The translations under genes and the position numbers were made by a program. The notes beneath the pieces are model-generated. The model was not told where the DNA came from and made no database searches. It saw only the letters and a list, made by a program, of their open reading frames with translations. Positions 3,853 to 38,914 of a stretch of 64,000 nt of DNA are shown one piece after another; positions within the stretch are counted from its first letter, which is position 1; each line of letters begins with the position of its first letter. The stretch is from the NCBI RefSeq assembly GCF_014203755.1, contig NZ_JACHJS010000001.1, forward strand, positions 6,882,001 to 6,946,000, given 5' to 3'. This DNA is from Saccharothrix violaceirubra. Its GTDB lineage: Bacteria; Actinomycetota; Actinomycetes; Mycobacteriales; Pseudonocardiaceae.

Positions 3853-3905
3853 CGGAAGTGGAGGGATTTGAACCCCCGGACGGTTTCCCGTCTCCCGCTT
3901 TCAAG
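3853..3905 (-). pseudogene. serT: 3' half of the host tRNA-Ser(UGA), left at attL
   Basis: On the minus strand this stretch starts with the anticodon loop CTTGAAA and reads the 3' anticodon stem (GCGGG), a long class II variable arm (GACGG-GAAA-CCGTC), a T arm with GTTCAAAT, and the acceptor strand CACTTCC plus discriminator G. It matches the 5' half at 38872-38914 exactly: GGAAGTG pairs with CACTTCC and CCCGC with GCGGG. The sequence upstream of the core here (CTCAG before the loop) cannot pair with GCGGG and supplies no GGAAGTG, so no functional tRNA is made at this junction. Confidence 0.88.
3895..3905 (-). other. attL: attL core, 11 bp
   Basis: The minus-strand sequence CTTGAAAGCGG is identical to the copy at 38872-38882. 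The bases on each side differ between the two ends, so 11 bp is the full shared core. It covers the tRNA anticodon loop and the start of the 3' anticodon stem. Cores in tRNA-targeting phages usually run on to the tRNA 3' end; this one does not. Confidence 0.88.
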
Positions 3906-3972
3906 CTGAGCGCTAGCGAGCACTGTGCCCACCTGGCGATACGCAGGTTAGCAGCGAGCGCAAGTCGCCCAA

Positions 3973-3984
3973 GCGCGTGCACTG
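3973..3984. promoter_or_regulatory. Candidate integrase arm site, left end
   Basis: GCGCGTGCACTG lies 68 bp inside attL and recurs exactly at 38743-38754 inside attR. A 12-mer shared by the two ends at similar distances from the cores fits an arm-type integrase binding site. This is inferred from position and repetition only. Confidence 0.45.
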
Positions 3985-4080
3985 GGTTCGATCTTGGTGG
4001 AGATGCCCCGAGGCCGTCAGGTGGTCACCCCGGGGGACGGCGCCCGACCCAACGGAGAGACCCGGACATACCTTCCGGAC

Positions 4081-4131
4081 CGTGAATGACCGAGGGGGCG
4101 CCCACGCCGGGCGCCCCCTCGGTCATTCACG
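4081..4131 (-). terminator. Strong terminator after the DUF397/XRE operon
   Basis: A perfect 23-bp stem with a 5-base loop (arms 4081-4103 and 4109-4131) begins just after the DUF397 stop codon on the minus strand. It ends the XRE/DUF397 transcript and insulates the prophage end. Confidence 0.85.
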
Positions 4132-4133
4132 GT

Positions 4134-4334
4134 TCAGTCCTGATCGTGTTGGACGGCGATGAAGCGCTCGACCGCGGCCGAGTTGAACCGGAGCACAGGA
4201 CCGTCGGGGTTCTTGCTGTCGCGGATCGCGGTCGCGTTGATCAGCTTCGCCAGCTCAACGCAGTTGGCGGACCCGTTCTGACTGCGGCTGCTCTTGCGCC
4301 AGGTGGCGGAGAGCAACTCGGGGTCACGCTTCAC
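4134..4334 (-). CDS. DUF397 protein
   Basis: A 66-aa protein with the DUF397 signature: WRKSSRSQNGSANCVELA followed by IRDSKNPDGPVLRF. Such proteins are encoded, often in many copies, next to XRE/DUF5753 regulators in filamentous actinobacteria; the best known pairs are WhiJ-like and affect development or antibiotic production. Its ATG overlaps the stop of the XRE gene (ATGA), so the two are translationally coupled. It probably acts as the small partner or antagonist of that regulator. The pair is common on actinobacterial chromosomes; here it is prophage cargo. Confidence 0.9.
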   Translation of the reverse strand: MKRDPELLSATWRKSSRSQNGSANCVELAKLINATAIRDSKNPDGPVLRFNSAAVERFIAVQHDQD

Positions 4335-5188
4335 GGTGCCTGCTCCGAACTGTGGATCTTGGTGAGTTGGTCGAGCCGTTCGAGGGACACGTCAGGGGAC
4401 AACGCCGCACGCTGGGCTCGGTCGAAGGCAAGTGTATAGACCTCGGTGTGCGGCGGGCGATCGTAAAACTCGGACGACGTGAGCGCCTCGACGTAGACGA
4501 ACGTCACCGCAGGGTCGCCGAGGTGGATCAAGTTGAACCAGGTACCGAGCGCGAGGTGCGCGCCAGCATCGAACGGCAGTAGGTGGAACTCGACGTTGGG
4601 ACGCTGCGCAAGGTCTCGAATGTGGTTGATCTGCCCCCGCATCACAGCGGCGCCGCCCACCTGTCGACGCAACGCCGACTCGCTGAGCACGATGGTTAGG
4701 CGTGGCGCGCCTGGCTCGACAAGTCTGCGCTGCCGCTCCACCCGGCCAGTGACGGCGAGGTCGATCTCGTTGGGCGCGAGCAGGCCGCCCTCGGTGAGGA
4801 TAGCGCGGGCGTAGTCCTCAGTTTGAAGGTTGCCCGGTAGCAGCTCCTCGACGTAGACCTTCAGGTGCGAGGCTGCTGCCTCCAGCGCCACGTACGTCAG
4901 AGCGAAGTCGGCCACGAACTCGGGACCGGGGTCGCGCTTCCGCGCCTGCACGCCGAGGGCGACCACCTTGTCGCGCTCGTGCTCATCAAGTCGGTAGAGG
5001 TCGGCGAGGGTGGTCACCTCGGTTGGCGCGAGCTTGCGTTTACCGCTCTCGACCAATCCGACCTTCTGCACGTACGACCAGCCGAGCGTCTCGGCTACGT
5101 CGCTGACGTCCAAGCCCGCGCGCTCGCGGTAGGTACGGAGCAGCGCGCCCAACTCGATCCGTCGTGCCAGCGGTGGCGGGTTGGCCAT
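4331..5188 (-). CDS. XRE-family regulator with DUF5753 domain (WhiJ-like)
   Basis: A 285-aa protein starting at ATG 5188 behind GAGAGG. Residues about 10-70 form an XRE helix-turn-helix (ALLRTYRERAGLDVSDVAETLGW, then VGLVESGKRKL). The remainder is the DUF5753 ligand/partner domain, recognisable by LQTEDYARAIL, RVERQRRLVEP, LSESALRR and the late segment TFVYVEALTSS. It would bind DNA and, with the DUF397 protein, act as a conditional repressor. It is likely autoregulated, because repeated CGTGACAG elements lie in its upstream region. It is separated from the phage immunity genes by 31 kb, so it is cargo rather than the immunity repressor. Confidence 0.9.
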   Translation of the reverse strand: MANPPPLARRIELGALLRTYRERAGLDVSDVAETLGWSYVQKVGLVESGKRKLAPTEVTTLADLYRLDEHERDKVVALGVQARKRDPGPEFVADFALTYVALEAAASHLKVYVEELLPGNLQTEDYARAILTEGGLLAPNEIDLAVTGRVERQRRLVEPGAPRLTIVLSESALRRQVGGAAVMRGQINHIRDLAQRPNVEFHLLPFDAGAHLALGTWFNLIHLGDPAVTFVYVEALTSSEFYDRPPHTEVYTLAFDRAQRAALSPDVSLERLDQLTKIHSSEQAP

Positions 5189-5280
5189 CGGTTCGTCCTC
5201 TCCGTGCTCGTCGTGAGCGTCGGTAGCTGTACCGGCACCACGTTCGCACGCGCAACTACACCCGAAGGAGAGGGTTCCAA

Positions 5281-5309
5281 CTGTCACGTGACAGTTGTAG
5301 CGTGACAGT
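5281..5309. promoter_or_regulatory. CTGTCACGTGACAG palindrome plus extra CGTGACAG half-site
   Basis: A perfect 14-bp palindrome (5281-5294) is followed by another copy of CGTGACAG, so the element occurs at 5287 and 5301, 14 bases apart. It lies in the divergent region between the XRE gene and the plus-strand cargo genes, which fits an operator for the XRE regulator controlling one or both directions. Confidence 0.55.
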
Positions 5310-5480
5310 AGGGACGGTGATGACTGTTTCAGTGCAGTAGATCACTAGGCGTTGGTCAGGCCCAAATGGCCTAACGCAGCGCTCGTCCGTTCGACCCGGG
5401 ATCGGCGACCCTGCGCTAGCTGGTCGCCGGTCTCGGCCCACGCCAGGTGGGGCGATGGCGAGAGAAGGAGGTCGCAAGGC

Positions 5481-5594
5481 ATGGCAGGCCAGTACCTAGC
5501 CGCTGGGCTTACGGCGTTGGTGTTTCTCGGCAGGCTCGCGGCTCACCTCTACGACTGGTGGCTGTACTCCAAGTGCACCGGGCGGCGCGGATGA
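5481..5594 (+). CDS. 37-aa single-span membrane peptide
   Basis: A short gene starting at ATG 5481 behind AAGGAGG. The product MAGQYLAAGLTALVFLGRLA... has one hydrophobic helix followed by a short aromatic and basic tail (YDWWLYSKCTGRRG). Its stop overlaps the next start (ATGA at 5591-5594), which argues for real, coupled translation. Size and topology resemble membrane toxins and small regulatory peptides, but nothing shows that activity. It is the first gene of a plus-strand operon of four small genes. Confidence 0.55.
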   Translation: MAGQYLAAGLTALVFLGRLAAHLYDWWLYSKCTGRRG

Positions 5595-5914
5595 GCGAGC
5601 ACCCTCTCGTCGCGCGTCTACTGGCGGCCGGTTTCAGCGTTCACCCTCAACTCGACAGGCACGGATACGACACGGGACTTCTGTTCGTGCGCCGCTCGCC
5701 GCGAGGGTTCGAAGTGCTTAGCGCATGGGACGACGACTACGCGCTCGCGACTTCCCTCCCGGAATCGCGCGACTGGTCGAACCCGTTTGCTTCCTCGGGA
5801 ACGGAGACTACCGGCGAAACGACGTTCGCCGCTGCGGTCGAGTTCCTACTGTCCGCCAAGCACGCCGCGGTCGAAGGTGACTGGTTTGACGGGGGCAGCG
5901 ATGTCCAGCAGTAA
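5591..5914 (+). CDS. Unknown 107-aa protein, related to the next gene
   Basis: A soluble protein starting MSEHPLVARLLAAGF. It has an N-terminal helix, a strand with LLFVRRSPRGFEVL, a DDDYALA segment and a C-terminal helix (TFAAAVEFLLSAKHA). The same order of elements recurs in the following 138-aa protein (ALRALNDHGF, LLYVRAWGEAPFIDL, AEDDATALR, LVEVVTDLLAV), so the two look like diverged copies. I recognise no family. It overlaps both neighbours and belongs to the four-gene cargo operon. Confidence 0.6.
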   Translation: MSEHPLVARLLAAGFSVHPQLDRHGYDTGLLFVRRSPRGFEVLSAWDDDYALATSLPESRDWSNPFASSGTETTGETTFAAAVEFLLSAKHAAVEGDWFDGGSDVQQ

Positions 5915-6317
5915 CGATGCGCTGCGTGCTCTCAATGATCACGGGTTTCAATATGTCATAGGGCCGGGTTATACCTCAAACGGCAAAGAGATTCCATTTA
6001 CCTTGCTTTACGTTCGCGCCTGGGGAGAGGCCCCGTTTATCGACCTTGTACACCTGCGAGCGGAAGATGACGCAACGGCGTTGCGGGTCGCATCGAACGG
6101 GCCAAACCCGAATCTCTTCGCGCGCGACAACATTGTGTGGAGCAGCCGGGACGGCGGCGATTTGGTCGAGGTGGTCACCGATCTTCTCGCCGTACCTAAG
6201 CCCGGCGAGCCTCACGCCCCAACTCTTCAAGTGAGAGAACCTAGCCGTATGTGGCTCCCCGAACAATCGAAGTCAAACGGCGAGATCATCTCTTACCCTA
6301 ATACGATCAACAGTTAG
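5901..6317 (+). CDS. Unknown 138-aa protein, related to the preceding gene
   Basis: It starts at ATG 5901 inside the end of the upstream gene (14-base overlap). The predicted protein is soluble and shares its layout with the 107-aa protein before it, with an added C-terminal tail of about 35 residues. Base composition drops in GC here compared with both host and phage structural genes, which suggests a separate origin for this cargo. No catalytic motif is evident. Confidence 0.6.
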   Translation: MSSSNDALRALNDHGFQYVIGPGYTSNGKEIPFTLLYVRAWGEAPFIDLVHLRAEDDATALRVASNGPNPNLFARDNIVWSSRDGGDLVEVVTDLLAVPKPGEPHAPTLQVREPSRMWLPEQSKSNGEIISYPNTINS

Positions 6318-6333
6318 CAACCGGGGGGATCAC

Positions 6334-6711
6334 GTGCTCTACTACTGGCCGATTGCCGCCACGATAGCAATCGTCTTGGTGACACTTGGCGCTTTGATCT
6401 ACTACCTGCGCCGCTCAACCGGACAACACGGGAACCCCAACGGTGCCGCATTCACGGTTGAAGACGCTCAGCAACAGGCCGCTCCCAAGGGACGCGGTCA
6501 GCCGAACGACGTTCAGCACCGACCAAGCACCTTATGGTCAAGTGGTGAAACCTCGCAGCGCGTCGAGCAGGTCATCGCGGACGACGACCTTTCGATGCTG
6601 GTGCGTCGATACGTTCTACACGCCGAGGCGCGGCGCGACGCGCTCGCCGGCGCGTGGCACTCGGCGGGTACGGGCGCGAGTCGCTCGATCGTCGAACCAG
6701 TTGCAGCCTGA
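6334..6711 (+). CDS. Membrane-anchored 125-aa protein, function unknown
   Basis: The GTG at 6334 follows GGGGGG. One N-terminal transmembrane helix (YYWPIAATIAIVLVTLGALI, residues 3-22) is followed by YYLRR, so the C-terminal 95 residues probably face the cytoplasm. That part is Gln/Pro-rich and then helical (RVEQVIADDDLSMLVRRYVL). It is the last gene of the small cargo operon, 16 bases after its neighbour. A membrane location next to the 37-aa membrane peptide would suit an exclusion or signalling system, but that is speculation. Confidence 0.55.
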   Translation: MLYYWPIAATIAIVLVTLGALIYYLRRSTGQHGNPNGAAFTVEDAQQQAAPKGRGQPNDVQHRPSTLWSSGETSQRVEQVIADDDLSMLVRRYVLHAEARRDALAGAWHSAGTGASRSIVEPVAA

Positions 6712-6834
6712 CACGCAAAAATCGACATTCAGGTGTTTTCACCCGAGTGTCCCCCTGATCAGCCCTGGGGCGACCCGGGGTGAAGAGAGAAAATGATGCG
6801 TCCTGACAGGGCGCAGAAGGGAGTACGCGACGTG

Positions 6835-6960
6835 ATGATCGACGTTGTGGAGAGCTTCAACGACGTGTTCGAGGGATCGCCGTTGATCTCGGTGCAGGCG
6901 ACGGAGTACCACAAGATCCCCGGTTCGTCCGACACCCGCAGCAAGTACGACGAGATCTGA
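6835..6960 (+). CDS. Candidate RiPP precursor peptide, 41 aa
   Basis: A very short gene directly before an AsnB-like amide synthetase and a GNAT gene. AAGGGAG at 6816-6822 is well placed for GTG 6832 or ATG 6835; a longer 55-aa start at 6793 also has a purine-rich site. The acidic N-terminal part (MIDVVESFNDVFEGSP) looks like a leader. The C-terminal part reads TEYHKIPGSSDTRSKYDEI, with acceptor/donor side chains K27, K37, D39 and E40. It has no canonical lasso core, because no Asp/Glu lies at positions 7-9 after a Gly. Precursor role is inferred from size, position and neighbours. Confidence 0.6.
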   Translation: MIDVVESFNDVFEGSPLISVQATEYHKIPGSSDTRSKYDEI

Positions 6961-6970
6961 TCGGCTCATT

Positions 6971-7001
6971 CCGGGGGGCGGGCGATTTGTCCGCCCCCCG
7001 G
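6971..7001 (+). terminator. Hairpin between peptide gene and synthetase gene, probable attenuator
   Basis: A perfect 11-bp GC stem (CCGGGGGGCGG) with a 9-base loop begins ten bases after the peptide stop and ends just before the GGGAG ribosome site of the synthetase. There is no U-run. A partial terminator here would give more peptide mRNA than enzyme mRNA, as in many RiPP operons. Confidence 0.65.
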
Positions 7002-7020
7002 CGCCTGTCTGGGAGTGAAA

Positions 7021-8628
7021 ATGCTCAAACTCTGTTTACGGATGCCGCCCGGTGCCGAATGGCGCTGGAATGGTGAACACTGGTCGGACGGGGTGAGCAC
7101 GATCCGTCCCTATGCGCACCCCATGCTCGAACACGCGGCCGTCACCGACGGTGTGTCGACGTTCGTCGTTGTCCGAGAGCGCGCTCGCCAGGTGGCCGGA
7201 TTCGGCGCGGCCGACGTGTTCACCACCGCCGACACCCCGACCTACTTGCGCTTGCTCGACGAGATCAAGGCATGGCCGCTCGACTTCGTGCTGATCGAGT
7301 GCACCCCGCCGGATGGCTATCGCATCACGTCCGGCACGTGGGGCACAGCGCCGCTATACCTGACCGATGCCGGGGAACGGCTTCGGGGATCGTGGTCCCT
7401 GCCTGATCTCCGACAACAGTTCAGCCTCGACGCGCTCGACGAGCGCTCAGTCGCCCGATTGCTGACCGAGCGCACCCGCTACGCACGCGAGACCCTGTTT
7501 CGGGGGGTCTACATGCTGACCGAGCGGGCGCACGCCACTTACGGCGACGACGGGCTCGTAATGCACTACCCCGCACCCGCCGAACACGCCTCACCCCGCG
7601 AGATACGCCACGACGTCGACGTTGTCGAGGTCTACCGGCGAGTGCTGTCCGATGCGGTATACGCGCGTCCGTTCGAGCCGCAGACGGCCGCGGTCGAGCT
7701 GTCCGGCGGGATGGACTCGGCATCGGTGGCTGTCGCACTCGCCGAGCAGCACCGCGGCGAGGTGCTCTCCTACGCGCTCGCCATCGGGGGCGAGGCAGGC
7801 GAGCAGCAGCTCCGGCGCCGGGCCGAGATGCTGCTCTATCTCGGGTTCCCCGACCTGACCGTCGACGCGCTGCCGCTGGCACCACTCAACCCCGACGGCG
7901 CACGAGCCCGCGGGCTGTTCGTCGAGCCCGGCGCCGAGCCCTATCACGAGGCGGTCGGCACCATCCTCGCCGCAGCACGTGGGCAGGGCGTTCGGACGGT
8001 CTTCACCGGCGACGGGGGCGACGAGCTGCTCAGCCTGCGCGGTGACGAATGGGCATCGGTCGGCAAGGTGCGCGGCCGGTTCTCCGACCACGAGCGGTTG
8101 CCCCCGTGGCTGGGCCGCCGCACGGCCGACCAGCTCGACGCCGTCGATGACGATCTCGCACCGCCGACGGTGATCAACGAGGCGACCCTGCTCGGGTTCG
8201 CTTTGCGTTCTCCGCAGTTCCTCGACGCGGGAATCTGGCCGGTGTCGCCGTTGTGTTCACCGCGGTTGATCCGGTTCGCCGAACAGCTTCCGGTGTCGTG
8301 GCGGGTCGACAAGCACATCTGCCGCGAGCGGTTCCACCGGATTGGGTTCTCCCATGACGCGAGGTACCCCCACCTTCGGGAGAACTTCCGGCATGTCATG
8401 GGCGCTGGACTGCGCGAGTACGGTATGCCGTTGCTCGCGGAGCTGTTGGCCGAGGCGGTTACTGTCGACCTCGGGTTCGTCGACGGCGACGCGCTGCGCG
8501 CGGCGTTGGAACGGTGGAAGCACGGCGAACAGGTCGACATGAAGGTCTTTCCCGTTCTCTCGCTCGAACTGGCGCTACGGGCGATGACGGCTCACAGGGG
8601 CGAACGGGAGGGCGCATTGTGTACGTGA
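7021..8628 (+). CDS. Asparagine-synthetase-like ATP-dependent amide synthetase
   Basis: A 535-aa protein. The C-terminal half is an Asn_synthase domain with the ATP-pyrophosphatase loop VELSGGMDSASVA (about residue 230) and FTGDGGDELL (about 325), as in AsnB, beta-lactam synthetase and lasso cyclases. The N-terminal about 200 residues keep the Ntn-like shape but do not start with the catalytic Cys2, so it should not hydrolyse glutamine. It would adenylate a carboxylate and join it to an internal amine. With the adjacent peptide and acetyltransferase it recalls the acetylated lasso peptide albusnodin system, yet no leader peptidase or RRE gene is present. ATG 7021 is preferred over GTG 7015 by GGGAG spacing. 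Confidence 0.85.
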   Translation: MLKLCLRMPPGAEWRWNGEHWSDGVSTIRPYAHPMLEHAAVTDGVSTFVVVRERARQVAGFGAADVFTTADTPTYLRLLDEIKAWPLDFVLIECTPPDGYRITSGTWGTAPLYLTDAGERLRGSWSLPDLRQQFSLDALDERSVARLLTERTRYARETLFRGVYMLTERAHATYGDDGLVMHYPAPAEHASPREIRHDVDVVEVYRRVLSDAVYARPFEPQTAAVELSGGMDSASVAVALAEQHRGEVLSYALAIGGEAGEQQLRRRAEMLLYLGFPDLTVDALPLAPLNPDGARARGLFVEPGAEPYHEAVGTILAAARGQGVRTVFTGDGGDELLSLRGDEWASVGKVRGRFSDHERLPPWLGRRTADQLDAVDDDLAPPTVINEATLLGFALRSPQFLDAGIWPVSPLCSPRLIRFAEQLPVSWRVDKHICRERFHRIGFSHDARYPHLRENFRHVMGAGLREYGMPLLAELLAEAVTVDLGFVDGDALRAALERWKHGEQVDMKVFPVLSLELALRAMTAHRGEREGALCT

Positions 8629-9215
8629 TCCGGCCAGCCGAACCGAGGGACCGCGACGGCGTCGCCGAACTTGTGCGCACCCGTGCGGAGTGGATGCGTG
8701 ATCAGGGGCTCGGCCGGTGGCGAGGGTGGGTGAGTTCGGCCGAGCACCTTGCCGACCAGGTGACCGAACCCGACTGGCCGGTATGGGTACTCGTCGACGA
8801 TGGGCTACTGCTCGGCATCACCACGACCGACGACACGCCTGCGCTCGGGTGGACCGACCAAGAACGCGCCGAGTCGGCGATCTTCCTGCAATCCACGGTG
8901 ACCCACCCGACGCGCGCGGGCGCAGGGCTCGGGATGGTCGTTGCCTTCTGGGCGCTCGATCGGGCTGCGCGCCGCGGGCAACAGTGGGTGCGCCGGGGCG
9001 TGCTCAGCGACAGTGAGGGTGGAAACCTCGGCCTGGTGCGTTACTACCGACGCCAAGGCTGGCGTGTGGTTCGGGCGGTGCCCCACCCGCGCAAGCCGGG
9101 CGAAATCACCGTGTGGTCGCTTGCTCGCCCGGCCGGGAGGCAGCCCGACCTCGTGGACATCGTGACCGAGGTCGAGCACGACGACGAGCTGCGGACGCGT
9201 CTTGCCTCTGCCTAA
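8619..9215 (+). CDS. GNAT family N-acetyltransferase
   Basis: A 198-aa protein starting at GTG 8619 behind GGGAGG. It overlaps the end of the synthetase gene by ten bases, so the two are coupled. GNAT features are the N-terminal strand VIRPAEPRDRDGVAEL, the acetyl-CoA region with HPTRAGAGLGMVVAFWALDRA and the late motif NLGLVRYYRRQGW. The segment RTRAEWMRDQGLGRW is common in actinobacterial GNATs. It would transfer an acetyl group to an amine, plausibly a Lys or the N-terminus of the product of the two genes before it. The substrate is inferred from context only. Confidence 0.88.
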   Translation: MYVIRPAEPRDRDGVAELVRTRAEWMRDQGLGRWRGWVSSAEHLADQVTEPDWPVWVLVDDGLLLGITTTDDTPALGWTDQERAESAIFLQSTVTHPTRAGAGLGMVVAFWALDRAARRGQQWVRRGVLSDSEGGNLGLVRYYRRQGWRVVRAVPHPRKPGEITVWSLARPAGRQPDLVDIVTEVEHDDELRTRLASA

Positions 9216-9230
9216 CCGGGCTACAACGCG

Positions 9231-9272
9231 AACAGCGCCCCCGCACCCGATGAAGGGTGCGGGGGCGCTGTT
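9231..9272. terminator. Bidirectional terminator between the GNAT gene and the phage tRNA
   Basis: A perfect 18-bp stem (arms 9231-9248 and 9255-9272) with loop GATGAA. On the plus strand it ends the peptide/synthetase/GNAT operon; on the minus strand it lies 29 bases after the tRNA-Ser gene and would end that transcript. Confidence 0.88.
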
Positions 9273-9301
9273 GGCAGACGAGCATCAGCCGGTCTGGGCT
9301 G

Positions 9302-9386
9302 CGGTAGCGGTGGGATTTGAACCCACGGAGGTTTCACCCTCGCACGTTTTCAAGACGTGTCCCTTAGGCCGCTCGGGCACGCTACC
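9302..9386 (-). tRNA. Prophage-encoded tRNA-Ser(UGA), intact
   Basis: An 85-nt class II tRNA. The acceptor stem GGTAGCG/CGCTACC, anticodon arm CACGT-CTTGAAA-ACGTG (anticodon TGA), long variable arm, T arm with GTTCAAAT and discriminator G all pair correctly; CCA is not encoded. It reads the same codon as the host tRNA that the prophage splits. Its sequence differs widely from the host gene, and after the anticodon loop it reads ACGTG instead of GCGGG, so it lacks the 11-bp attachment core. A TAGGCT element 7-12 bases upstream could be a promoter -10, allowing expression independent of the lysis genes. Confidence 0.95.
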
Positions 9387-9430
9387 TCGCCCAAGAGCCT
9401 AGCCGACTACGGTCGTCGGCGAGCGTGAGA

Positions 9431-9703
9431 TCAGCCGTCCGACGGCGGTCGGGTGCCGGGGTAGATGGGCGGCTTGGCTGAGCCGAGCAGGACCCGGGTC
9501 AGCCAGTCGGGCAGCCTGGCCTCGATCTTGCGGGCGATGGGGTAGACCACACCGACCAGGACCGGGACGACGAGCAGCTCGGCGGCGCCGCCGAGCGCGT
9601 TGGTGAGGTAGTCGGGGGCGCCGAGGCTGATCAGCCAGGCGACCAGCGCGGACCACGCGACCGGAACCACAGTGCGTAGCCATGCGATGAAACGATCGGA
9701 CAT
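9431..9703 (-). CDS. Holin
   Basis: A 90-aa protein downstream of the endolysin, starting at ATG 9703 behind GGAGGAAGC. Two hydrophobic segments are visible (VVPVAWSALVAWLISLG and AAELLVVPVLVGVVYPIA), followed by a charged C-terminal tail. Size, two-span topology and position at the end of the late operon fit a holin that forms inner-membrane lesions for endolysin release. The assignment is by topology and context; no specific family motif was seen. Confidence 0.75.
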   Translation of the reverse strand: MSDRFIAWLRTVVPVAWSALVAWLISLGAPDYLTNALGGAAELLVVPVLVGVVYPIARKIEARLPDWLTRVLLGSAKPPIYPGTRPPSDG

Positions 9704-9775
9704 GCTTCCTCCACAGGTGGGGACAAGGGTGGGGATAACTCGAACGCACGTTCGAGTAGGCGCGGTTTGCGCTGT

Positions 9776-9943
9776 TCAGGTGTGGTCGCGCTCATCGGGC
9801 GATCGGTCGCAGGCGAGTCGTACGAACCACCTCGGACGCCGTTCGGCCACGTAGTCCGGTGAGGTGACGCGTGCAATCCACTGGTCGAAGGCCGCGCGCG
9901 TTCCGGACGACCACCGACGGAGTGCGGATACGGGATGGGGCAT
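9776..9943 (-). CDS. Small basic phage protein, 55 aa
   Basis: It starts at ATG 9943 with AGGACAG just upstream, eight bases after the stop of the small membrane gene. The product MPHPVSALRRWSSGTRAAFD... is basic and Trp-containing with no membrane segment. It sits inside the lysis region and is too short to assign. A different frame starting at 9795 and overlapping the holin start is a weaker candidate. Confidence 0.4.
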   Translation of the reverse strand: MPHPVSALRRWSSGTRAAFDQWIARVTSPDYVAERRPRWFVRLACDRSPDERDHT

Positions 9944-9951
9944 CGGCTGTC

Positions 9952-10077: not shown

Positions 10078-10081
10078 GGAC

Positions 10082-10893: not shown

Positions 10894-10985
10894 GGATTCC
10901 TCTTTGCTGGAAATGGAAATACGATTCGATTCGGAAAATGGACGCGTGAGTTCGACCCCCGCTATGGGGTTTGGTAGAAGTCGAG

Positions 10986-32262: not shown

Positions 32263-33110
32263 CGTGCCCCCTCGATGGCGGGCCGGTGGGGCTGGTCCTG
32301 GCCCTCGTCGGCGAGCGCGAGCCAGCCGCGGACCTTCTCGCCGCGGGCACTGCGGGCGACCGGTGTTTGCGCTGCTCGGCGGGGTCGTGCGGTGATCTTG
32401 ACCGCGTCGTCGTAGAGGTGCGGGAGCAGGCCGGGGCGGGCACCGGGGCGGCGGTGCCACTCGTCGAGGGCGGCGCGTAGGGCGACCAGGTCGCCCCCGT
32501 CGCGCAGCAGGTCGTCGACGTGGCGGGCGAGCGCGCGCACCGTCGCCGGGCGGTAGGCGGCGCCGGTCTGCTCGCGCCAGGCGGACACGAGCCGGTAGGC
32601 GTCGGGCCGGACGGCGGTGGCCGAGAGTTCGGCGAGCGTGCTCGTGCCTGGCGTGCGCGCGGGGCGGCTTGGTTCCTTCCTCCGGTTCCGTAGTTCCGGT
32701 TCACCTTGGGGTGTCGCTGTGTCCCCCGCGTGGGCTGTCGCTGTGACAGGGCCGGGGTGTCGCTGTGTCCCCGGGGGACTGTCACTGTGTCGCGTGGACG
32801 GTTCGGGGGCGGGTGTCGCTGTGTCCGGTGTGGTCGGTCCGTCGAGGGCGAGGCGGTACTCGTTCGAGGTGTCGGCGCCGGTGCCGCGTTGGCGGCGGGC
32901 GCGGCCGAGCAGACGGCGGTCGGCGAGGGTGTCGAGTGCGCGGCGCACGGTGCGCTCGGACGCCTCGGTCTCTCGGGCGAGGGTCCGCACCGAGGTCGTC
33001 GCGCGGCCGTCTCGGTTGGCGTGTTCGGCGAGCACGAACAAGATCAGTTTTGGCATGGGTCCGCCTGCGGTCTGCTCAGCGGCCCAGCGGACGGCGACCA
33101 CGCTCACCAC
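32259..33110 (-). CDS. Winged-helix replication initiator-like protein containing iterons
   Basis: 283 aa. Residues about 20-90 form a winged helix-turn-helix (KLILFVLAEHANRDGRATTS, LARETEASERTVRRALDTLA, then GRARRQRG), as in phage replication initiators and helix-turn-helix DnaT/DnaD-type proteins. The middle is a Pro/Thr/His-rich low-complexity linker encoded by five direct repeats. The C-terminus is helical (RPDAYRLVSAWREQTGAAYR, LPHLYDDAVKITARP). An initiator whose gene contains its own binding repeats is the lambda O layout. The initiator function is inferred from fold, repeats and context. Confidence 0.7.
   Translation of the reverse strand: MVSVVAVRWAAEQTAGGPMPKLILFVLAEHANRDGRATTSVRTLARETEASERTVRRALDTLADRRLLGRARRQRGTGADTSNEYRLALDGPTTPDTATPAPEPSTRHSDSPPGTQRHPGPVTATAHAGDTATPQGEPELRNRRKEPSRPARTPGTSTLAELSATAVRPDAYRLVSAWREQTGAAYRPATVRALARHVDDLLRDGGDLVALRAALDEWHRRPGARPGLLPHLYDDAVKITARPRRAAQTPVARSARGEKVRGWLALADEGQDQPHRPAIEGAR
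32709..32826. repeat. Five iteron-like direct repeats, candidate prophage replication origin
   Basis: A 16-base unit close to GGGTGTCGCTGTGTCC starts at 32709, 32732, 32755, 32777 and 32811. Three copies are exact and two have a few changes. The first four are spaced 23, 23 and 22 bases, about two helical turns, so bound protein would line up on one face. They lie in the linker-coding part of the initiator-like gene. Confidence 0.72.
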
Positions 33111-33346
33111 GACCCCGATGCGGCGGCGTACTGCTCGGCGATGAGGTGCAGCTCGACGTCGAGCAACGCGGCGACTCGGCCCAGGCGATCACCGCGGCGG
33201 GCGAGGATGCGCAGCACCTCGGCGGCCTCGGGCGCGGGCAGCTCACGGAACGGGCGGCGCCCCCGCAGCGCGGCCTCGACGACGAGCGCGTCGAGGCGGT
33301 GCACGGCGTCGGGTGGGTTGGTGGCGGATGTGGTGTTGTCGGTCAT
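33104..33346 (-). CDS. Small early phage protein, 80 aa
   Basis: ATG 33346 behind GGGGGAG. A disordered start is followed by a helical region (AVHRLDALVVEAALRGR, EAAEVLRILARRGDRLGRVA) of possible helix-turn-helix character. It overlaps the initiator start by seven bases. Function unknown. Confidence 0.6.
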   Translation of the reverse strand: MTDNTTSATNPPDAVHRLDALVVEAALRGRRPFRELPAPEAAEVLRILARRGDRLGRVAALLDVELHLIAEQYAAASGSW

Positions 33347-33434
33347 GGCTCCCCCAGATGGAGCGCGGCGGACGCGGGCGTGCTTCACCGCGCCCGCCGC
33401 ACGTGTGCGACGGACTTCGTGACGTGAAACGGCG

Positions 33435-33779
33435 TTAGGCGGCGGCCTCGGCGGTGCGGGCGATCCAGACCCGGTTACGGCTCGCTCGGCGGGAGCGGCG
33501 CCGCGACCGGTACTCACCGCAGGAGACGATCACCCGGCGCGCGGCCCAGGTGCCCAGCACCGAGGGCAGCACGTTCGGCGAATGCGCCTCGGCGGCAACG
33601 TCGTCGGGGATGGCCTTGCGCACGTCGTCGGCGGTGAACGGCGCCCCGGCTGCGACCAGGTCGGCGAGCACGGTCTCGACGGTCTCGCGGTAGCGGCGAT
33701 GTGCCGCGGTCGCGGCGGCGAGGTTGGCCTCGTGCCCGGCGTGGCGGTCGGCGAACGCTAGGGCGAGCTGGTCGGCCAC
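33435..33779 (-). CDS. Early phage protein, 114 aa
   Basis: GTG 33779, overlapping the Cys-rich gene. Helical N-terminal part (DQLALAFADRHAGHEANLAAA, YRETVETVLADLVAAGAPFT), then a winged-helix-like end (ADDVRKAIPDDVAAEAHSP, LGTWAARRVIVSCGEYRS). The pattern is frequent in early regions of actinophages and suggests DNA binding. Role unknown. Confidence 0.6.
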   Translation of the reverse strand: MADQLALAFADRHAGHEANLAAATAAHRRYRETVETVLADLVAAGAPFTADDVRKAIPDDVAAEAHSPNVLPSVLGTWAARRVIVSCGEYRSRRRSRRASRNRVWIARTAEAAA

Positions 33780-34009
33780 GGTGGCGCCCCCTTCTCGATG
33801 TCCTCGGCCCACGCGGCGAGCGCGAGCAACAGGTCGCGGTGCGCCGCCGCGTCGCGGGCGCGCTGCTCCGGTGTCCGGGCCTGCACCACCACGCAAGTCG
33901 GGCACTCCGGGCAGCAGGGCGCGCAGTCCTCGGCGTCACAGCACCCGGTCGGTAGGTGGTCGCCGCAGCAGACGAGCACGCGGCCAGGGGGAACGATCGC
34001 GGTTGTCAC
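33758..34009 (-). CDS. Cys-rich early phage protein, 83 aa
   Basis: GTG 34009 overlaps the upstream stop (GTGA). The N-terminal half is packed with cysteines (VCCGDHLPTGCCDAEDCAPC, then CPECPTCVV), ten or more in about 35 residues, so one or two zinc sites are likely. The rest is a charged helix (RDAAAHRDLLLALAAWAEDI). No family recognised. Confidence 0.6.
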   Translation of the reverse strand: MTTAIVPPGRVLVCCGDHLPTGCCDAEDCAPCCPECPTCVVVQARTPEQRARDAAAHRDLLLALAAWAEDIEKGAPPWPTSSP

Positions 34010-34395
34010 GCGACACCCCGCAGAGCGGTACGCAGGGTTGACAGGGACCACTCGGCGCGCTGGGCGCGGATCTTCCACTCGTCGCGTTCGGCGGCGAGCT
34101 GGTCGTGCTCGGCCAAGCGGGCGACGACGTCGTCGAGCGTGAGCGCGCCAAGAGCACCGACATTCGGAACGGCGGGTACGCGGTCGCCGCGGTGCTTGTT
34201 CAGGTGCGGTCGGACGCTGTGCACGTTCGGCGAGGTGTAGTCGCAATGCGCGCACCCGTAGACGGTCCGGCCGTCGGCGAGCGTGAGCGTGCGCGTCTGC
34301 TTCCACAGCACTGGGGTACCTGCGTTGTCGCGCATCGGGGCGGGGGTCGGCTCATCGGTGACCACGGCCACCCCGTCGACAGTGGTCGCGGTCAT
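34006..34395 (-). CDS. C2H2-like zinc-finger phage protein
   Basis: 129 aa overlapping recT by four bases. A single zinc finger is visible: YGCAHCDYTSPNVHSVRPHL followed by NKHRG (C-x2-C...H-x4-H). A C-terminal helix (LDDVVARLAEHDQLAAERDE) may form a coiled coil. Zinc-finger proteins of this type are common in actinophage early regions; the target is unknown. Confidence 0.7.
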   Translation of the reverse strand: MTATTVDGVAVVTDEPTPAPMRDNAGTPVLWKQTRTLTLADGRTVYGCAHCDYTSPNVHSVRPHLNKHRGDRVPAVPNVGALGALTLDDVVARLAEHDQLAAERDEWKIRAQRAEWSLSTLRTALRGVA

Positions 34396-35219
34396 CGGGT
34401 GCCCCTGGTGGTTGACGTGGTGGCCGGTTCGCGTTGGGGGGTGGTGTCGTCGACGACCTCGGCGTCGACGACGTCGTCGGCGGAGCGCGCGGGCGGGACG
34501 TTGGTCGTCTCCTGCTCTGCGGCGCGGTCAGGGCGCAGGGTCTCGCGGTACTCAGCGGACGTGGGCACCCACTTCTCAAGCTCGTGAACGGCCGTCTTGC
34601 GCCACATGGACTCTTCCCAGACCTGCCACGGCGAGTCGTCGCCGGTGGCGCCGCGGGCGACCGACTTGTGCCGCATGACCTCGGCCCGGTTCATCACCAC
34701 CACCCGGGAGGTCGCTCCGTCGAGCATCACGGCGTAGGCGTAGACCCCGATCAGCTCGCCACGGTCATCGGCGAACCAGTCGGGTCGGTGGCGCGGCCGG
34801 TCCATGACGTCGGGCTCGTAGGCGAAGCTGTCGCGGGCGCGGACCACTTCCGCCTTGACCGAGCGGACAGCGCCGGCTCGGTACATGCGTTCGATGACGC
34901 CTTGATACTGCTCGATCCCGACGACCTCGACCGTGTTGTTCCTGCGGTCGTTGAACGGCACCAGGGCGAACGCGTCGGTGCCCGGGTCGTGGCCGAGCCG
35001 GGCGCATTCGAGCAGCGCGGCGAGGAACGAGGCGGGATTGCGCTCGGCGGCCTGGGCGAGCTTGACGTTTCGCCGCAACAGCCCTTGCGACAAGCGCACG
35101 AACGTCGCCGCCTTGACGTGGCTGGGGAGCACCTGCGCGAAGTCGGCCCGGTACTGCCCGATGAGGGCCTGCGCGGCGGTCTGCGTGGCGACGGCGTTGG
35201 TGACGGTCTGGGCGGTCAT
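34392..35219 (-). CDS. recT: RecT-family single-strand annealing protein
   Basis: 275 aa. RecT features: LPSHVKAATFVRLSQGLLRR, PASFLAALLECARLGHDPGT, EVVGIEQYQGVIERMYRAG, and the late segment WEESMWRKTAVHELEKWVP. It anneals complementary single strands during recombination-dependent replication or circularisation. It is coupled (ATGA) to the YqaJ exonuclease that would produce its substrate. The acidic C-terminal tail is typical. Confidence 0.95.
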   Translation of the reverse strand: MTAQTVTNAVATQTAAQALIGQYRADFAQVLPSHVKAATFVRLSQGLLRRNVKLAQAAERNPASFLAALLECARLGHDPGTDAFALVPFNDRRNNTVEVVGIEQYQGVIERMYRAGAVRSVKAEVVRARDSFAYEPDVMDRPRHRPDWFADDRGELIGVYAYAVMLDGATSRVVVMNRAEVMRHKSVARGATGDDSPWQVWEESMWRKTAVHELEKWVPTSAEYRETLRPDRAAEQETTNVPPARSADDVVDAEVVDDTTPQREPATTSTTRGTR

Positions 35220-36118
35220 GCGGCGGCGCTCACCTTCTGTGGCGTCGAACGGATAGGGGACGGGCGGAGAGATGGCGGCGCGGCACCGCGACCGGGCACC
35301 CGGATAGCGATCGACTCGCCGTCGACCACGGCACGGCGGGCGCGGCCGAGCACGTCGAGCAGCTCGACCGTCGCGCGCTGCTTGGTGGACTCGGCGGCCT
35401 TGTGCTCGGCGACCGCGGCTCGGTACCGCTCGGCGAGCGCGGGGTCGATCTCGACCTCGACGTCGTCGATCTGCGGGTGCAACTCGCGTACGGCGCGGTA
35501 GGTGACGGCGTGCTCGTCGAGGTTCGGCCGCTCGCCGCGGTCGAGCGAGTCGAGGAACTCGCGCGCCGCGGCGCGCAGCAGCTCGACTTCGTCGGCCGCG
35601 TAGGACACGAGGTACTCGCGGTACTCGCTGCCCCCGATCAGCACGGCGACGAACGCACGGGATAGGCCGAGGGTGTCGAGCTGCCAGAGGACTTGAGCCC
35701 GGTAGTACACCGGAATGTCGTCAGTGCCGGGCTCTCCCCACCCGGTCGTATCGTGGGCTGTCTTGATCTCCAACAGCACGCGCTCGTCGGGCAGGCTCAC
35801 GAGCCGGTCGGGGGTGGCGAGCTGCCACGGCCGAGCGCGGTTCACCCATGACCCGGTTCGGCGCACGCGGGCGTCGGGGTGCTGCTCGGCGAACACGGTG
35901 GCGATTGGTGATTCGAGGATGCGCCCCCAACGCATCGGTTCGTTGTCGGAGGTGGGCGGAATGAGTCCCTTTTTCTTGTGCCACAGGGAAAAGCGGCTCT
36001 CGTAGGGCGACAGGCCGATCACAGCAGCCACCTCGGACCCGCCGAGACGAGAACCACGAGCAGCGATCCACTCGGGCGAGCCGGGGGTGAAGGACCCAAT
36101 TCGGACGGCGGACCTCAT
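35216..36118 (-). CDS. YqaJ-family phage exonuclease
   Basis: 300 aa. The YqaJ core has WIAARGSRLGGSEVAAVIGL, FSLWHKKKGL, the metal site WGRILESPIATVF, LATPDRLVSL (Asp) and VLLEIKTAH (E-x-K), then VYYRAQVLWQLDTLG. It is a 5'-3' double-strand exonuclease like lambda Exo and works with RecT. The ATG overlaps the preceding HTH gene stop. Confidence 0.93.
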   Translation of the reverse strand: MRSAVRIGSFTPGSPEWIAARGSRLGGSEVAAVIGLSPYESRFSLWHKKKGLIPPTSDNEPMRWGRILESPIATVFAEQHPDARVRRTGSWVNRARPWQLATPDRLVSLPDERVLLEIKTAHDTTGWGEPGTDDIPVYYRAQVLWQLDTLGLSRAFVAVLIGGSEYREYLVSYAADEVELLRAAAREFLDSLDRGERPNLDEHAVTYRAVRELHPQIDDVEVEIDPALAERYRAAVAEHKAAESTKQRATVELLDVLGRARRAVVDGESIAIRVPGRGAAPPSLRPSPIRSTPQKVSAAA

Positions 36119-36342
36119 GACGCCGCCGTCTGGGGCTCATCTAGCAGCAGGTCACCCGGCTGGCAGTCGAGCACCTCGGCGAGCCGCACGAGCAGGTTAG
36201 GACTGGGCCGCCGGTAGCCGTTTTCGATAGCGGACACAGCGCCCTTGGTGCACCCGGCTTCCCTGGCGAGGGCTGTCACTGTCCGGCCCGATGTGATGCG
36301 GAGCCGCCGCAGCTTGTGCCGGTTGATCGGTGGAGCAACCAT
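36115..36342 (-). CDS. XRE-family early regulator (Cro-like)
   Basis: 75 aa from ATG 36342. Almost the whole protein is one XRE domain (LRRLRITSGRTVTALAREAG, then KGAVSAIENGYRRPSPNLLV and LAEVLDCQPGDLLLDE). It is the first gene of the early minus-strand operon, facing the repressor across an operator region, so a Cro-like role is likely. There is no clear ribosome site; GGGG lies too close to the ATG, so the mRNA may have a very short leader. Confidence 0.82.
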   Translation of the reverse strand: MVAPPINRHKLRRLRITSGRTVTALAREAGCTKGAVSAIENGYRRPSPNLLVRLAEVLDCQPGDLLLDEPQTAAS

Positions 36343-36357
36343 GCCCCAAACCCTAGA

Positions 36358-36502
36358 CAAACAATCGCAAACCCGCCACGGTGTTTGCTAGCGTTTGCGC
36401 AGGTAGCGAGCCGTGTCGCGGCAAGCACTGACAGTTAGATGGTTAGCTGTGCTCAACGCTGCACGTCCCCGTCAGGGGTTGCGGGGTTTGCTTTCGTTTG
36501 CG
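36358..36502. promoter_or_regulatory. Immunity-region operators, three copies of GTTTGC-N4-GTTTG
   Basis: The element appears as GTTTGCTAGCGTTTGCG (36383-36399), GTTTGCTTTCGTTTGCG (36486-36502) and, on the minus strand, GTTTGCGATTGTTTG (36358-36372). Two lie near the early gene start and one directly before the repressor ATG. This suits competitive binding of the two XRE proteins and repressor autoregulation. Confidence 0.68.
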
Positions 36503-36516
36503 GAAAATGTTGATCT

Positions 36517-36909
36517 ATGAGCGAGGGTGTCGACGTGGTCGAAGCGGTGCGGCACGAGTGGCCGCTCGGGCCGTACCTCAAATCGGCTCGTGAGTCCGCA
36601 GGGCTGTCGATGCAGGAAACCGCTCGTCGCGCGGGTGTCAGCCACGCCAAGGTGCGAGACCTCGAACGCGGATACAAGATCAAAGACGGCAAGCAGTACC
36701 CCGTCGGCACGACGAAGTCGACCGTCGAGTGCGTTGCCGACGCCGTAGGTGCTGACGTAGCCGAAGCGCTTCGATTGGTCGGCATCACCAAGGACGACCC
36801 AAGCCGCCCGGGGCGGAGGCCGAAGGGGCTAGACCTGAGTGCGGTCCCATACGAGGAACTGCTCGCCGAGCTGGGGCGACGCCTCTCCAAGCTGCCCCGT
36901 CAGCCGTAG
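36517..36909 (+). CDS. Probable immunity repressor, XRE family
   Basis: 130 aa on the plus strand, divergent from the early operon. An N-terminal XRE domain (WPLGPYLKSARESAGLSMQE, RRAGVSHAKVRDLERGYKIK, then STVECVADAVGADVAEAL) is followed by a short basic linker and a helix (VPYEELLAELGRRLSKL). It lacks a LexA-like peptidase, so induction would not be by self-cleavage. Operator 36486-36502 overlaps its likely promoter, and the ribosome site is weak. Confidence 0.8.
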   Translation: MSEGVDVVEAVRHEWPLGPYLKSARESAGLSMQETARRAGVSHAKVRDLERGYKIKDGKQYPVGTTKSTVECVADAVGADVAEALRLVGITKDDPSRPGRRPKGLDLSAVPYEELLAELGRRLSKLPRQP

Positions 36910-37013
36910 CCTGTACAGGCTAAATCCAGTGACTCTCCGTGGAGTAGACGACTACCCATTTGCGGCGTATACACCTCTAGGGGGCAAGGACTGTAGGCGC
37001 TGGGGGTAGAGCC

Positions 37014-37442
37014 GTGTCGGTCGTTGGCGAAGCTGAGTGCTTCGTATGCACGTCTGCAACAGGGCAGACGATGCACTTGTGGTTGAAGGCGCTTGACGAC
37101 GGGCGTATGTGGGCGTGGCTCGAAGAGAGTCTCCTCGAACCCGTGATCGTGGCTCCTGCCGAAGCAGCGCAGGCGTTGAACTCCTGGCGCGCGATCCGCG
37201 ATCGCATCAGGCGAGGCGCAGCCAGCGATCAACAATTTGCGATCATCTTCACCGGTGAGCACAGCCGTCGTAGAACGGTGCTCGTGTTCGGCCAGACCAG
37301 GCAAGGTCACATGACCTACTGGCGTGACGGCGAGTTGCTCGAACCGGTGCCGCTCGACCTCAACGCCGTAGATGAGCTGATCGACACTTGGGAGGCTGTC
37401 GCTTGCGTCGCGGCAGGCAATCCGCGCCAGACTGCTTGCTAA
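37014..37442 (+). CDS. Unknown plus-strand protein of the lysogeny region
   Basis: 142 aa from GTG 37014 behind GGGGGTAGAG. Alpha/beta protein with no membrane segment (MHLWLKALDDGRMWAWLEES, QQFAIIFTGEHSRRRTVLVF, RQGHMTYWRDGELLEPVPL). It lies between repressor and integrase on the repressor strand, so it may be expressed in the lysogen. No family recognised. Confidence 0.6.
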   Translation: MSVVGEAECFVCTSATGQTMHLWLKALDDGRMWAWLEESLLEPVIVAPAEAAQALNSWRAIRDRIRRGAASDQQFAIIFTGEHSRRRTVLVFGQTRQGHMTYWRDGELLEPVPLDLNAVDELIDTWEAVACVAAGNPRQTAC

Positions 37443-37475
37443 ACCGCACGTCCCTTGATGTGATCCCGGTCACGG

Positions 37476-37739
37476 CTACCTCTTTCGGCTACCGCGTCTG
37501 GCGCGAGCACTGAGCATCGCAAGCCGGGAGAAGTACGCCTTTCGCGCACTCTCGGCTCGCTGTGCGCGTTCATCGGGCGGTAGGACGCCGTCGGGATCGA
37601 CCTGCCGCAGGAAACGGTCGGAAGCGGCTCGGCGAGCCGCTTCCGTCCGGGCTGCCCTGTTCGCCGTATTCGCCCACGAGACATGGGCCGCCATTTTCGC
37701 ATGTAGGGAGCGCTGCGCCGGTGTGAGCCGTTCATCCAT
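37476..37739 (-). CDS. Small basic protein next to integrase
   Basis: 87 aa from ATG 37739 (ATG 37757 possible). The sequence (RLTPAQRSLHAKMAAHVSWA, FLRQVDPDGVLPPDERAQRA, ESARKAYFSRLAMLSARARR) matches a conserved actinobacterial hypothetical protein seen on phages and integrative elements. It is basic, helical and 38 bases downstream of the integrase gene, so it could be a recombination directionality factor or another DNA-binding protein. No proof either way. Confidence 0.65.
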   Translation of the reverse strand: MDERLTPAQRSLHAKMAAHVSWANTANRAARTEAARRAASDRFLRQVDPDGVLPPDERAQRAESARKAYFSRLAMLSARARRGSRKR

Positions 37740-37777
37740 GAAACCAGCACAGCGCATCCCCGTCACCGACCGGCTTG

Positions 37778-38710
37778 CTAGACGCGGTCCCCGAGTTTCA
37801 ACGAGCGTGCCGTTGCGTGCGCTCGTTCAATGGCGGCACTCGCACCGTAGCGCTCTAGCATCTCTCGCGACTTCCACCCCATGATCCGCATGAGGTCAGT
37901 CTCGTTGCCGCCCGCAAGCTGCCAGTGGTGCGCGAGCTGGTGTCGGAACATGTGCGGGTGGATGTGACCGACGCCCGCCTGCGCACTGCGGCGAATGAGC
38001 ATCGCCTTAATGCCTGCCCCTGTCAGAATCCCTTGTCCGGTAAGGCCCAGCCAGAGGCCCGGCAACGCCGCTTGTCGTTGTTTCGCTCGCGAACGAATGT
38101 ACCGACTTAGCGACTGGATTGTTTTGGGCGACAGGGGAATCACTCGGTCTCGCCGACCCTTGCCTCGGACGTAGATCACACCGAGTTCGAGGTCGATATC
38201 GTCAAGGGTGAGTGCGGTCACCTCCCCTTTGCGGGCGCCGCAATCGAACAGGACGCGCAGGATCGCGGTGTCGCGCCTGTTCTCAAAGTCGTTCCCTTTA
38301 CAGGCGTCGAGCAAAGCGGACATCATGTCAAGAGTGACGATCGGAATAGGCTTCTCTTCGAGCTGCGGGGCTTTCATTCGATCCATCGGCGACCGCTCGA
38401 TTTCTTCCTCATTGACCAGCCAGCCGAAGAAGGTTCGCAAGCAACGAAAGTTGTTGTGCGCGTTTCCTGGGCTGGTGCGGCCGAGCAAGTCGACCATGTA
38501 GTCACGGAGGGCCGAGGTAGTGATCGTGGTCGGCTCGAACTCGTCGTCAGCCTGGTCGTATGCCCACTCGCCGAGCAGACGAAGGGCGTGCAGGTAGATA
38601 CGCACGGTATTCGGTGACTTGTTGTCAGCTTCGAGGGACCTGCACCATTCCAACCCGAGCGTCTTCCACTCGCCGGGCGCGTAGGCGTATGCGGCTGCGG
38701 ACTTCTTCAT
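37778..38710 (-). CDS. int: Tyrosine-family integrase
   Basis: 310 aa from ATG 38710 with GGAG just before; TTG 38719 is an alternative. The N-terminal SAM-like core-binding domain (LEADNKSPNTVRIYLHALRL) is followed by the catalytic domain: Arg in DCGARKGEVTALTLDDIDL, Lys near VRGKGRRDRVIPL, the HxxR box HPHMFRHQLAHHW, and Tyr in MGWKSREMLERYGAS. It catalyses integration at the tRNA-Ser anticodon loop. In the lysogen it is 162 bases downstream of the broken tRNA's 5' half on the same strand. Confidence 0.95.
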   Translation of the reverse strand: MKKSAAAYAYAPGEWKTLGLEWCRSLEADNKSPNTVRIYLHALRLLGEWAYDQADDEFEPTTITTSALRDYMVDLLGRTSPGNAHNNFRCLRTFFGWLVNEEEIERSPMDRMKAPQLEEKPIPIVTLDMMSALLDACKGNDFENRRDTAILRVLFDCGARKGEVTALTLDDIDLELGVIYVRGKGRRDRVIPLSPKTIQSLSRYIRSRAKQRQAALPGLWLGLTGQGILTGAGIKAMLIRRSAQAGVGHIHPHMFRHQLAHHWQLAGGNETDLMRIMGWKSREMLERYGASAAIERAHATARSLKLGDRV

Positions 38711-38742
38711 GGTCTCCAACCTGGTGTCGTGATGTCACCAGG

Positions 38743-38785
38743 CGCGTGCACTGCGAGCGCTGTACGCGCTCAACTGTGCACTGCC
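38743..38785. promoter_or_regulatory. Candidate integrase arm sites, right end
   Basis: GTGCACTGC occurs at 38747-38755 and 38777-38785, exactly 30 bases apart, with an inverted GAGCG/CGCTC element between. The first copy is part of GCGCGTGCACTG, also found near attL. They lie 87-129 bases inside attR and upstream of int. Confidence 0.45.
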
Positions 38786-38871
38786 GAGACCGCATGAAAC
38801 CTACGTTTCCGCAGGTCAGAGGCCAGCAGAGCAAGCGGGGAAGACTGCTCGGAAGGTCCGTCGCAAGTCAT

Positions 38872-38882
38872 CCGCTTTCAAG
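38872..38882 (-). other. attR: attR core, 11 bp
   Basis: CTTGAAAGCGG on the minus strand, identical to the attL copy. The five bases before it (CCCGC) are the host 5' anticodon stem; the base after it (A) is phage and breaks the expected GCGGG pairing. Confidence 0.88.
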
Positions 38883-38914
38883 GCGGGTGCATTCGGCCGC
38901 TCTGCCACACTTCC
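38872..38914 (-). pseudogene. serT: 5' half of the host tRNA-Ser(UGA), left at attR
   Basis: Minus strand from 38914: acceptor strand GGAAGTG, D arm (TGGCAGAGCGGCCGAATGCA), 5' anticodon stem CCCGC and loop CTTGAAA. The phage sequence after the core has no T arm (no GGTTC) and no CACTTCC to pair with the acceptor, so the gene is truncated here. Joined to 3853-3905 through the core it gives a fully paired class II tRNA-Ser. The host promoter upstream of 38914 now reads toward int. Confidence 0.88.

Follow-up and report, generated by a model that had tools for sequence, protein, structure and literature searches.

A prophage in Saccharothrix violaceirubra that splits the host tRNA-Ser(UGA) gene and carries a tRNA-Ser(UGA) of its own, a probable case of tRNA-dependent lysogeny

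How does a bacterium read the codon UCA when a prophage has cut the gene for the matching transfer RNA (tRNA) in two? This question is raised by a stretch of 64,000 nucleotides (nt) of the Saccharothrix violaceirubra genome (contig NZ_JACHJS010000001.1, positions 6,882,001 to 6,946,000), hereafter the window, in which a prophage lies between the two halves of the host gene for tRNA-Ser(UGA), here called type A, and encodes a complete tRNA-Ser(UGA), here called type B. By its sequence features the prophage is a case of tRNA-dependent lysogeny, a kind already known, in this instance with another tRNA and another host family, and its use of this mode at tRNA-Ser(UGA) is considered very probable.

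The split tRNA-Ser(UGA) gene and the dependence of the host

The type A halves span 35.1 kb end to end, share an 11-bp core, CTTGAAAGCGG, and join in silico into an 84-nt tRNA-Ser with anticodon TGA, whose acceptor stem pairs throughout. At neither the left (attL) nor the right (attR) prophage junction does ARAGORN detect a tRNA, and in the whole window it detects a single tRNA gene, a tRNA-Ser with anticodon TGA at 9301-9386 on the minus strand. An earlier, sequence-only reading of this DNA had proposed that the prophage splits the host gene at an 11-bp core, that neither junction rebuilds it and that the prophage carries a complete tRNA-Ser of the same anticodon, all of which these results confirm. 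The comparison that it proposed, with the intact tRNA of a related strain, gives full-length orthologues of the joined type A, 88-98 % identical, in 18 of the 25 genomes of the genus. The acceptor stem of the window's type A contains a compensated pair relative to most aligned Saccharothrix copies, which points to a gene that was probably functional up to the insertion. A marR-family flank adjoins type A in all 14 aligned loci of the genus. When 3906-38871 was compared with the 20-kb loci of 20 relatives at an expect value (E) of 1e-10, only 9226-9423, which comprises the type B tRNA and the sequence close to it, aligned, and therefore the whole of 3906-38871 is an insertion at the type A locus. 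We also rejected the idea that the prophage is smaller and borders on a tRNA gene at 9302 that belongs to the host, on the basis of this alignment and of the type A halves and arm repeats that mark the prophage ends.

A tRNA scan of the complete genome gave 53 matches, 48 of them above the cut-off, and ARAGORN was run on loci covering all 48; the serine anticodons are GGA, CGA and GCT, with TGA in the prophage only. A search of the genome with the joined type A recovered both halves, matched the CGA gene and the prophage tRNA (78-79 %) and otherwise gave weaker, partial matches. An overlooked second tRNA-Ser(UGA) is ruled out by the scan, the ARAGORN anticodons and the type A search together, so that the lack of a second UCA-reading tRNA, on which the sequence-only reading had staked its case beforehand, stands. 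The host does use UCA, at 4 of 3,902 codons in 11 host ORFs and in 4 of these ORFs. Under established decoding rules UCA is read only by a serine tRNA with U34 and, since no other UCA-reading tRNA was found, the integrated prophage supplies the only one found. The host cell thus probably reads UCA with a viral tRNA, which would be transcribed, charged and essential in the lysogen.

In the proposed mechanism, the tyrosine integrase would recombine the 11-bp core of the phage attachment site (attP) with the identical stretch in the anticodon region of the host gene for tRNA-Ser(UGA), an integration that would cut the gene in two and restore no tRNA, and for this reason the lysogen would depend on the prophage tRNA-Ser(UGA). 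The dependence that the sequence-only reading had described as addiction by tRNA replacement is supported as such, however the word addiction is too strong; because both ends hold the same core sequence, an exact excision would restore type A, making the dependence one on gene B and not on the prophage for ever. While the prophage remains integrated, the lysogen would be unable to lose the tRNA B gene.

Judged by annotation, the gene set between the cores is siphophage-like (Table 1). A tblastn search of phage records with the RusA-like protein gave no match. The 12-bp repeat CAGTGCACGCGC occurs in both attP arms, at -79 and +129 from the core. At the attL end of the prophage (4331-9215) lie non-structural genes, including those for a DUF5753 helix-turn-helix regulator and an asparagine-synthase domain protein; the IMG/VR record of this prophage begins at 8619, leaving most of this end outside the record. 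Two further observations concern the host locus. An inversion of the block 38930-42690, behind marR, is present in several relatives (e.g., L082 and L096), with the tRNA at one breakpoint, and at least one extra type A 3' half (85-96 % identity) is present in 8 of the 18 type A genomes (G005, G006, G009, G012, G013, G019, G020 and G024), so that tRNA-Ser(UGA) is also a hot spot for ordinary tRNA-restoring elements.

Table 1. Positions of the prophage, its genes and its attachment site parts in the window.
Feature	Position	Strand	Basis or remark
3' half of host tRNA-Ser(UGA), type A, at attL	3853..3905	-	core copy at 3895-3905 (plus-strand positions)
Prophage	3906..38871		Pfam, PHROG, comparison with relatives' loci
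Putative arm-type repeat CAGTGCACGCGC, left arm	3973..3984	-	repeat comparison
Complete phage-borne tRNA-Ser(UGA), type B	9302..9386	-	ARAGORN; TAnnCT box directly upstream, GC-rich hairpin downstream (by inspection)
Tail	11533-14217		prophage gene
Tape measure	15104-17305		prophage gene
Major tail protein	18018-18539		prophage gene
Connectors	18551-19694		prophage genes
Capsid	20382-21260		prophage gene
Head morphogenesis	23328-25232		prophage gene
Portal	25207-26766		prophage gene
Terminase	26781-28220		prophage gene
RusA-like	30995-32785		prophage gene
RecT	34392-35219		prophage gene
YqaJ exonuclease	35216-36118		prophage gene
Tyrosine integrase, 313 aa, next to attR	37778..38719	-	Pfam Phage_integrase 9.7e-24; PHROG integrase 5.6e-44
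Putative arm-type repeat CAGTGCACGCGC, right arm	38742..38753	-	repeat comparison
9-bp copy GCAGTGCAC of putative arm-type repeat, right arm	38776-38784
attP right arm beside core, like a decayed tRNA 3' half	38830..38871	-	19/42 in register
5' half of host tRNA-Ser(UGA), type A, at attR	38872..38914	-	core copy at 38872-38882 (plus-strand positions)
Host marR-family gene, type A neighbour in relatives, locus marker	38929..39399	-	relatives' loci

Related prophages and the kind of lysogeny

A search of 390 genomes of the family with the integrase of locus L159 gave matches in 28 at E 1e-70 or better, seven of which are at least 62 % identical. In five of these seven genomes, namely the window's and those designated G090, G209, G251 and G219, type A is split at CTTGAAA by an element with its own tRNA-Ser(TGA); the four besides the window belong to two other genera of the family and carry related integrases. 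From end to end of the tRNA halves these four span 37.6 kb (G090), 40.2 kb (G209), 42.6 kb (G251) and 11.2 kb (G219), and the exact junction repeats measure 11 bp in the window, 7 in G090, 10 in G209, 11 in G251 and 10 in G219. No intact type A was found in any of the four, where the remaining serine matches read CGA or are the prophage tRNA itself. The tRNA is inverted relative to type A in four of the five prophages, the window's being the exception, and in three of these four it lies approximately 0.3 kb behind the integrase gene. The short G219 element has kept the integrase, the tRNA and a NUDIX gene and contains transposase genes, and Pfam searches with 10 of its open reading frames (ORFs) detected no structural phage gene.

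The sixth genome, G133, provides the contrast of canonical integration. Its integrase is related (59 % identity to the window's) and uses the same position in tRNA-Ser(UGA), however a 53-bp core that includes the 3' half restores type A, and the genome holds type A, a type A 3' half and a CGA gene with no B-type match. In the seventh, G177, an intact type A lies on another contig and a tRNA-Thr-like 3' half was seen by inspection upstream of the integrase. The integrase tree groups G209, G251 and G219 (support 96) and joins them to G133 (support 100), while the window and G090 are placed without support.

Lysogeny that depends on a phage tRNA was described by Guerrero-Bustamante and Hatfull in 2024 for the mycobacteriophages Fionnbharth, LeBron and Gaia and the Gordonia phages BrutonGaster, OneUp and Mollymur, in which the phage tRNA is reported to be required (PMC10865867). 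The system in the window resembles these in its tyrosine integrase, in a bacterial attachment site within a tRNA gene, in its short core (11 bp, compared with 8-17 bp), in the putative arm-type sites that flank the attP core, in the absence of a rebuilt tRNA at attL or attR, and in a phage tRNA of the same isotype, here tRNA-Ser(TGA); no other copy of the broken tRNA was found in the window's host. Canonical integration, with a core of 30-45 bp or more and a restored 3' half, does not describe a locus with an 11-bp core and no junction tRNA. Several features differ from those given in the accessible text of the 2024 study. The positives in its Table 2 are Lys-TTT, Ile2-CAT and Leu-CAA, and the whole word "Ser" is absent from that text (PMC10865867), whereas the tRNA here is Ser(UGA), the hosts are Saccharothrix and two other genera of its family, the prophages are natural ones known from sequence alone, attP appears to hold a 3'-half relic, and the same tRNA type is chromosomal in relatives. 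No Ser(UGA) case of this lysogeny was found in the literature searched, which lay mostly outside subscription journals and was available in part. A parallel is reported, in the portion of the source available, for Sinorhizobium meliloti prophages that inactivate tRNA-Leu(UAG) by central disruption of the gene and carry a compensating tRNA-Leu(UAG) resembling genes of other bacteria; this case concerns another phylum, another tRNA and two strains, with no chromosomal spread described in that portion (PMC11476347).

The sequence-only reading had regarded attP as lacking the missing half of the tRNA; no tRNA is indeed restored, but the arm beyond the core seems to be a decayed remnant of that 3' half. 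In-register identities between this arm and the host 3' half are 19/42 in the window, 22/45 in G090, 18/43 in G209, 18/42 in G251 and 21/42 in G219, scores that are equalled or exceeded by 0.7 %, 0.13 %, 1.8 %, 2.4 % and 0.03 %, respectively, of background windows drawn from the fetched prophage sequence (34,924, 37,356, 39,858, 27,160 and 10,958 windows). In each of the five prophages no shift from 0 to 15 does better than register 0, and only in G219 does another, shift 1, do equally well. When the window, G090 and a single member of the related trio are combined by Fisher's method, the result is 5e-7 if the best member of the trio is taken and 3e-5 if the weakest is. These values suggest that attP was once canonical and that its tRNA half decayed after a complete tRNA had been acquired. 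The relation of tRNA-dependent lysogeny to ordinary tRNA-restoring integration has been called unclear, with possible orders, this one among them, discussed in the text available (PMC10865867). The attP relic and the sister element in G133 bear on this evolutionary order and favour one in which ordinary integration came first, a tRNA was acquired and attP decayed; the present mode would then have arisen from tRNA-restoring integration through decay of the attP copy of the 3' half.

Two observations weigh against the proposed dependence on the prophage tRNA. The codon UCA is rare in the host and is absent from a 1,167-aa ORF of the rpoB locus. The integrases of G209 and G251 are 98 % identical, and therefore the five cases are not five independent events. 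Two more weigh against decay in attP. In G209 and G251 the gapped score of the attP arm is ordinary, with 45 % and 52 % of windows doing as well. Lastly, the left-arm control is itself unusual in the window (16/32, 0.6 %), compared with 8-28 % in the other four.

Elements at tRNA-Ser(CGA) were observed alongside these. The tRNA-Ser(CGA) gene at 6856353 of the window's own genome (G000:C1:6842421-6856437; L031, L048 and L169) has a perfect 3'-half copy 14 kb away, with an integrase end beside it by inspection of L031, an ordinary tRNA-restoring element close to the window. Locus L161 (G014:C1:4612500-4632400) has a pair of complete, identical tRNA-Ser(CGA) genes at a distance of 6.4 kb (3721-3806 and 10086-10171), one of them beside a related integrase (44 %); this element may bring along a full extra copy of the tRNA that it targets.

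Type B tRNA in the chromosomes of relatives

With every first-look candidate scored, the 25 genomes of the genus divide into 18 with full-length type A and no B, six with B and no A, and the window's own, with A broken and B in the prophage. In the rpoB tree, a single-locus tree, B genomes are interspersed with A genomes; support of 100 is given to two pairs of mixed type, B-type G003 with A-type G001 and B-type G018 with A-type G014, other supports being low. In a draw of 150 genomes of the family, 17 had no type A match at E 1e-12 (up to six candidates scored per genome), and 12 of these carry a tRNA 91-99 % identical to a B-type query, reading TGA in each; G066 has a tRNA at 83 %, read as TGA, and the others are G035, G102, G141 and G157. 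Across the 390 genomes the B-type query found matches in 105 at E 1e-18 (up to two candidates scored per genome). All 27 chromosomal loci that top this list read TGA, as do G160, G226 and G259, and 20 weaker matches (83-87 %) read CGA in 15 cases and TGA in five (G066, G174, G206, G265 and G268). Groups g16 and g27 commonly have B in the chromosome. In the tRNA tree, for which just two Saccharothrix genomes supplied the CGA tRNA, a split with support 83 separates the five prophage tRNAs and the chromosomal B copies included from A and CGA.

Chromosomal B is often found near marR, the gene that marks the type A locus. Ten of the 27 chromosomal B loci have a marR homologue inside the 3-kb locus, and three of the other 17, when read more widely (G256, G039 and G107), have one at approximately 2.1-3.7 kb; among the loci read widely (15 and the other four Saccharothrix), marR is within 4 kb of B in 19 of 19. 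B converges with marR in all ten widely read g16 loci and in six Saccharothrix, and runs with marR in six g27 loci and in Actinokineospora auranticolor. A TAnnCT box stands directly upstream of all 20 B copies aligned (by inspection), and B therefore looks like a self-contained cassette. A recent import of B from afar was ruled out by the occurrence of its exact 44-nt start in five records, four of Saccharothrix and one of Actinokineospora, in a search of the genome collection, where the window's own record may be absent. Among phage records, the best listed match to type B covers 99 % of the query at 79 %, and matches at 80-90 %, over stretches that are not listed, were found in 12 of 63 records.

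These distributions may reflect a lasting replacement of chromosomal A by the phage-type tRNA, more than once in the family, a reading to which we give almost an even chance and whose direction we infer. Phages carrying a B-type tRNA-Ser(UGA) would have broken the ancestral A, and the prophages would then have eroded, the phage-type tRNA staying near the old locus in Saccharothrix species, A. auranticolor, g16 and g27; the 11-kb G219 element, with its integrase, tRNA and transposases, looks like an intermediate stage. The main rival, a tentative but serious possibility, is that the phages captured B from chromosomes, where B had replaced A in another way, such as by horizontal transfer at the marR locus. 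Consistent with this rival are the abundance of chromosomal B in g16 and g27 and the absence of phage genes near B in 15 of 15 loci, where one listed match is an ORF across the tRNA itself; Pfam searches with nine ORFs flanking chromosomal B gave nothing phage-like, and no type A relic was seen beside B, all of which speaks against a phage origin. The order of marR then B, as in g27, could also come from plain allele replacement. However, the tRNA is inverted in four of the five prophages, so that marR would come to face B once the A half and the integrase were lost, as is seen in g16 and the six Saccharothrix. In addition, a single base separates the chromosomal B of G261 from the tRNA of the G209 prophage, and the alignment with the prophage continues beyond the tRNA for 82 nt (87.9 % for the alignment as a whole), into the end of a prophage ORF that by inspection is cut short in G261, which argues against capture from a chromosome.

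The prophage tRNA as cargo and the meaning of the locus

Many phages carry tRNAs (PMC10865867), and the prophage tRNA could be ordinary cargo that serves lytic translation or counters tRNA-cutting defences, its match to the broken gene being a coincidence; the 28 kb that separate it from the integrase gene in the window fit this explanation. We nevertheless regard it as very unlikely, as the anticodon equals that of the broken gene in all five such prophages, the tRNA gene is the sole one in the window and the only UGA gene found in its genome, and the tRNA-restoring sister G133 has no B-type match. An assembly artefact, or an excised form dominating the culture with A intact in most cells, is scarcely credible for a single 7.35-Mb contig with clean junctions and arm repeats on both sides, an anatomy repeated in four other genomes, even though assemblies do not show population frequencies.

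Understood as tRNA-dependent lysogeny, the prophages described here would extend a recently described mode to Ser-UGA, to three genera and to natural prophages, and the canonical sister integrase that uses this site provides a contrast. If it is true that chromosomal B comes from such phages, a core tRNA gene would have been replaced through lysogeny in whole bacterial groups.

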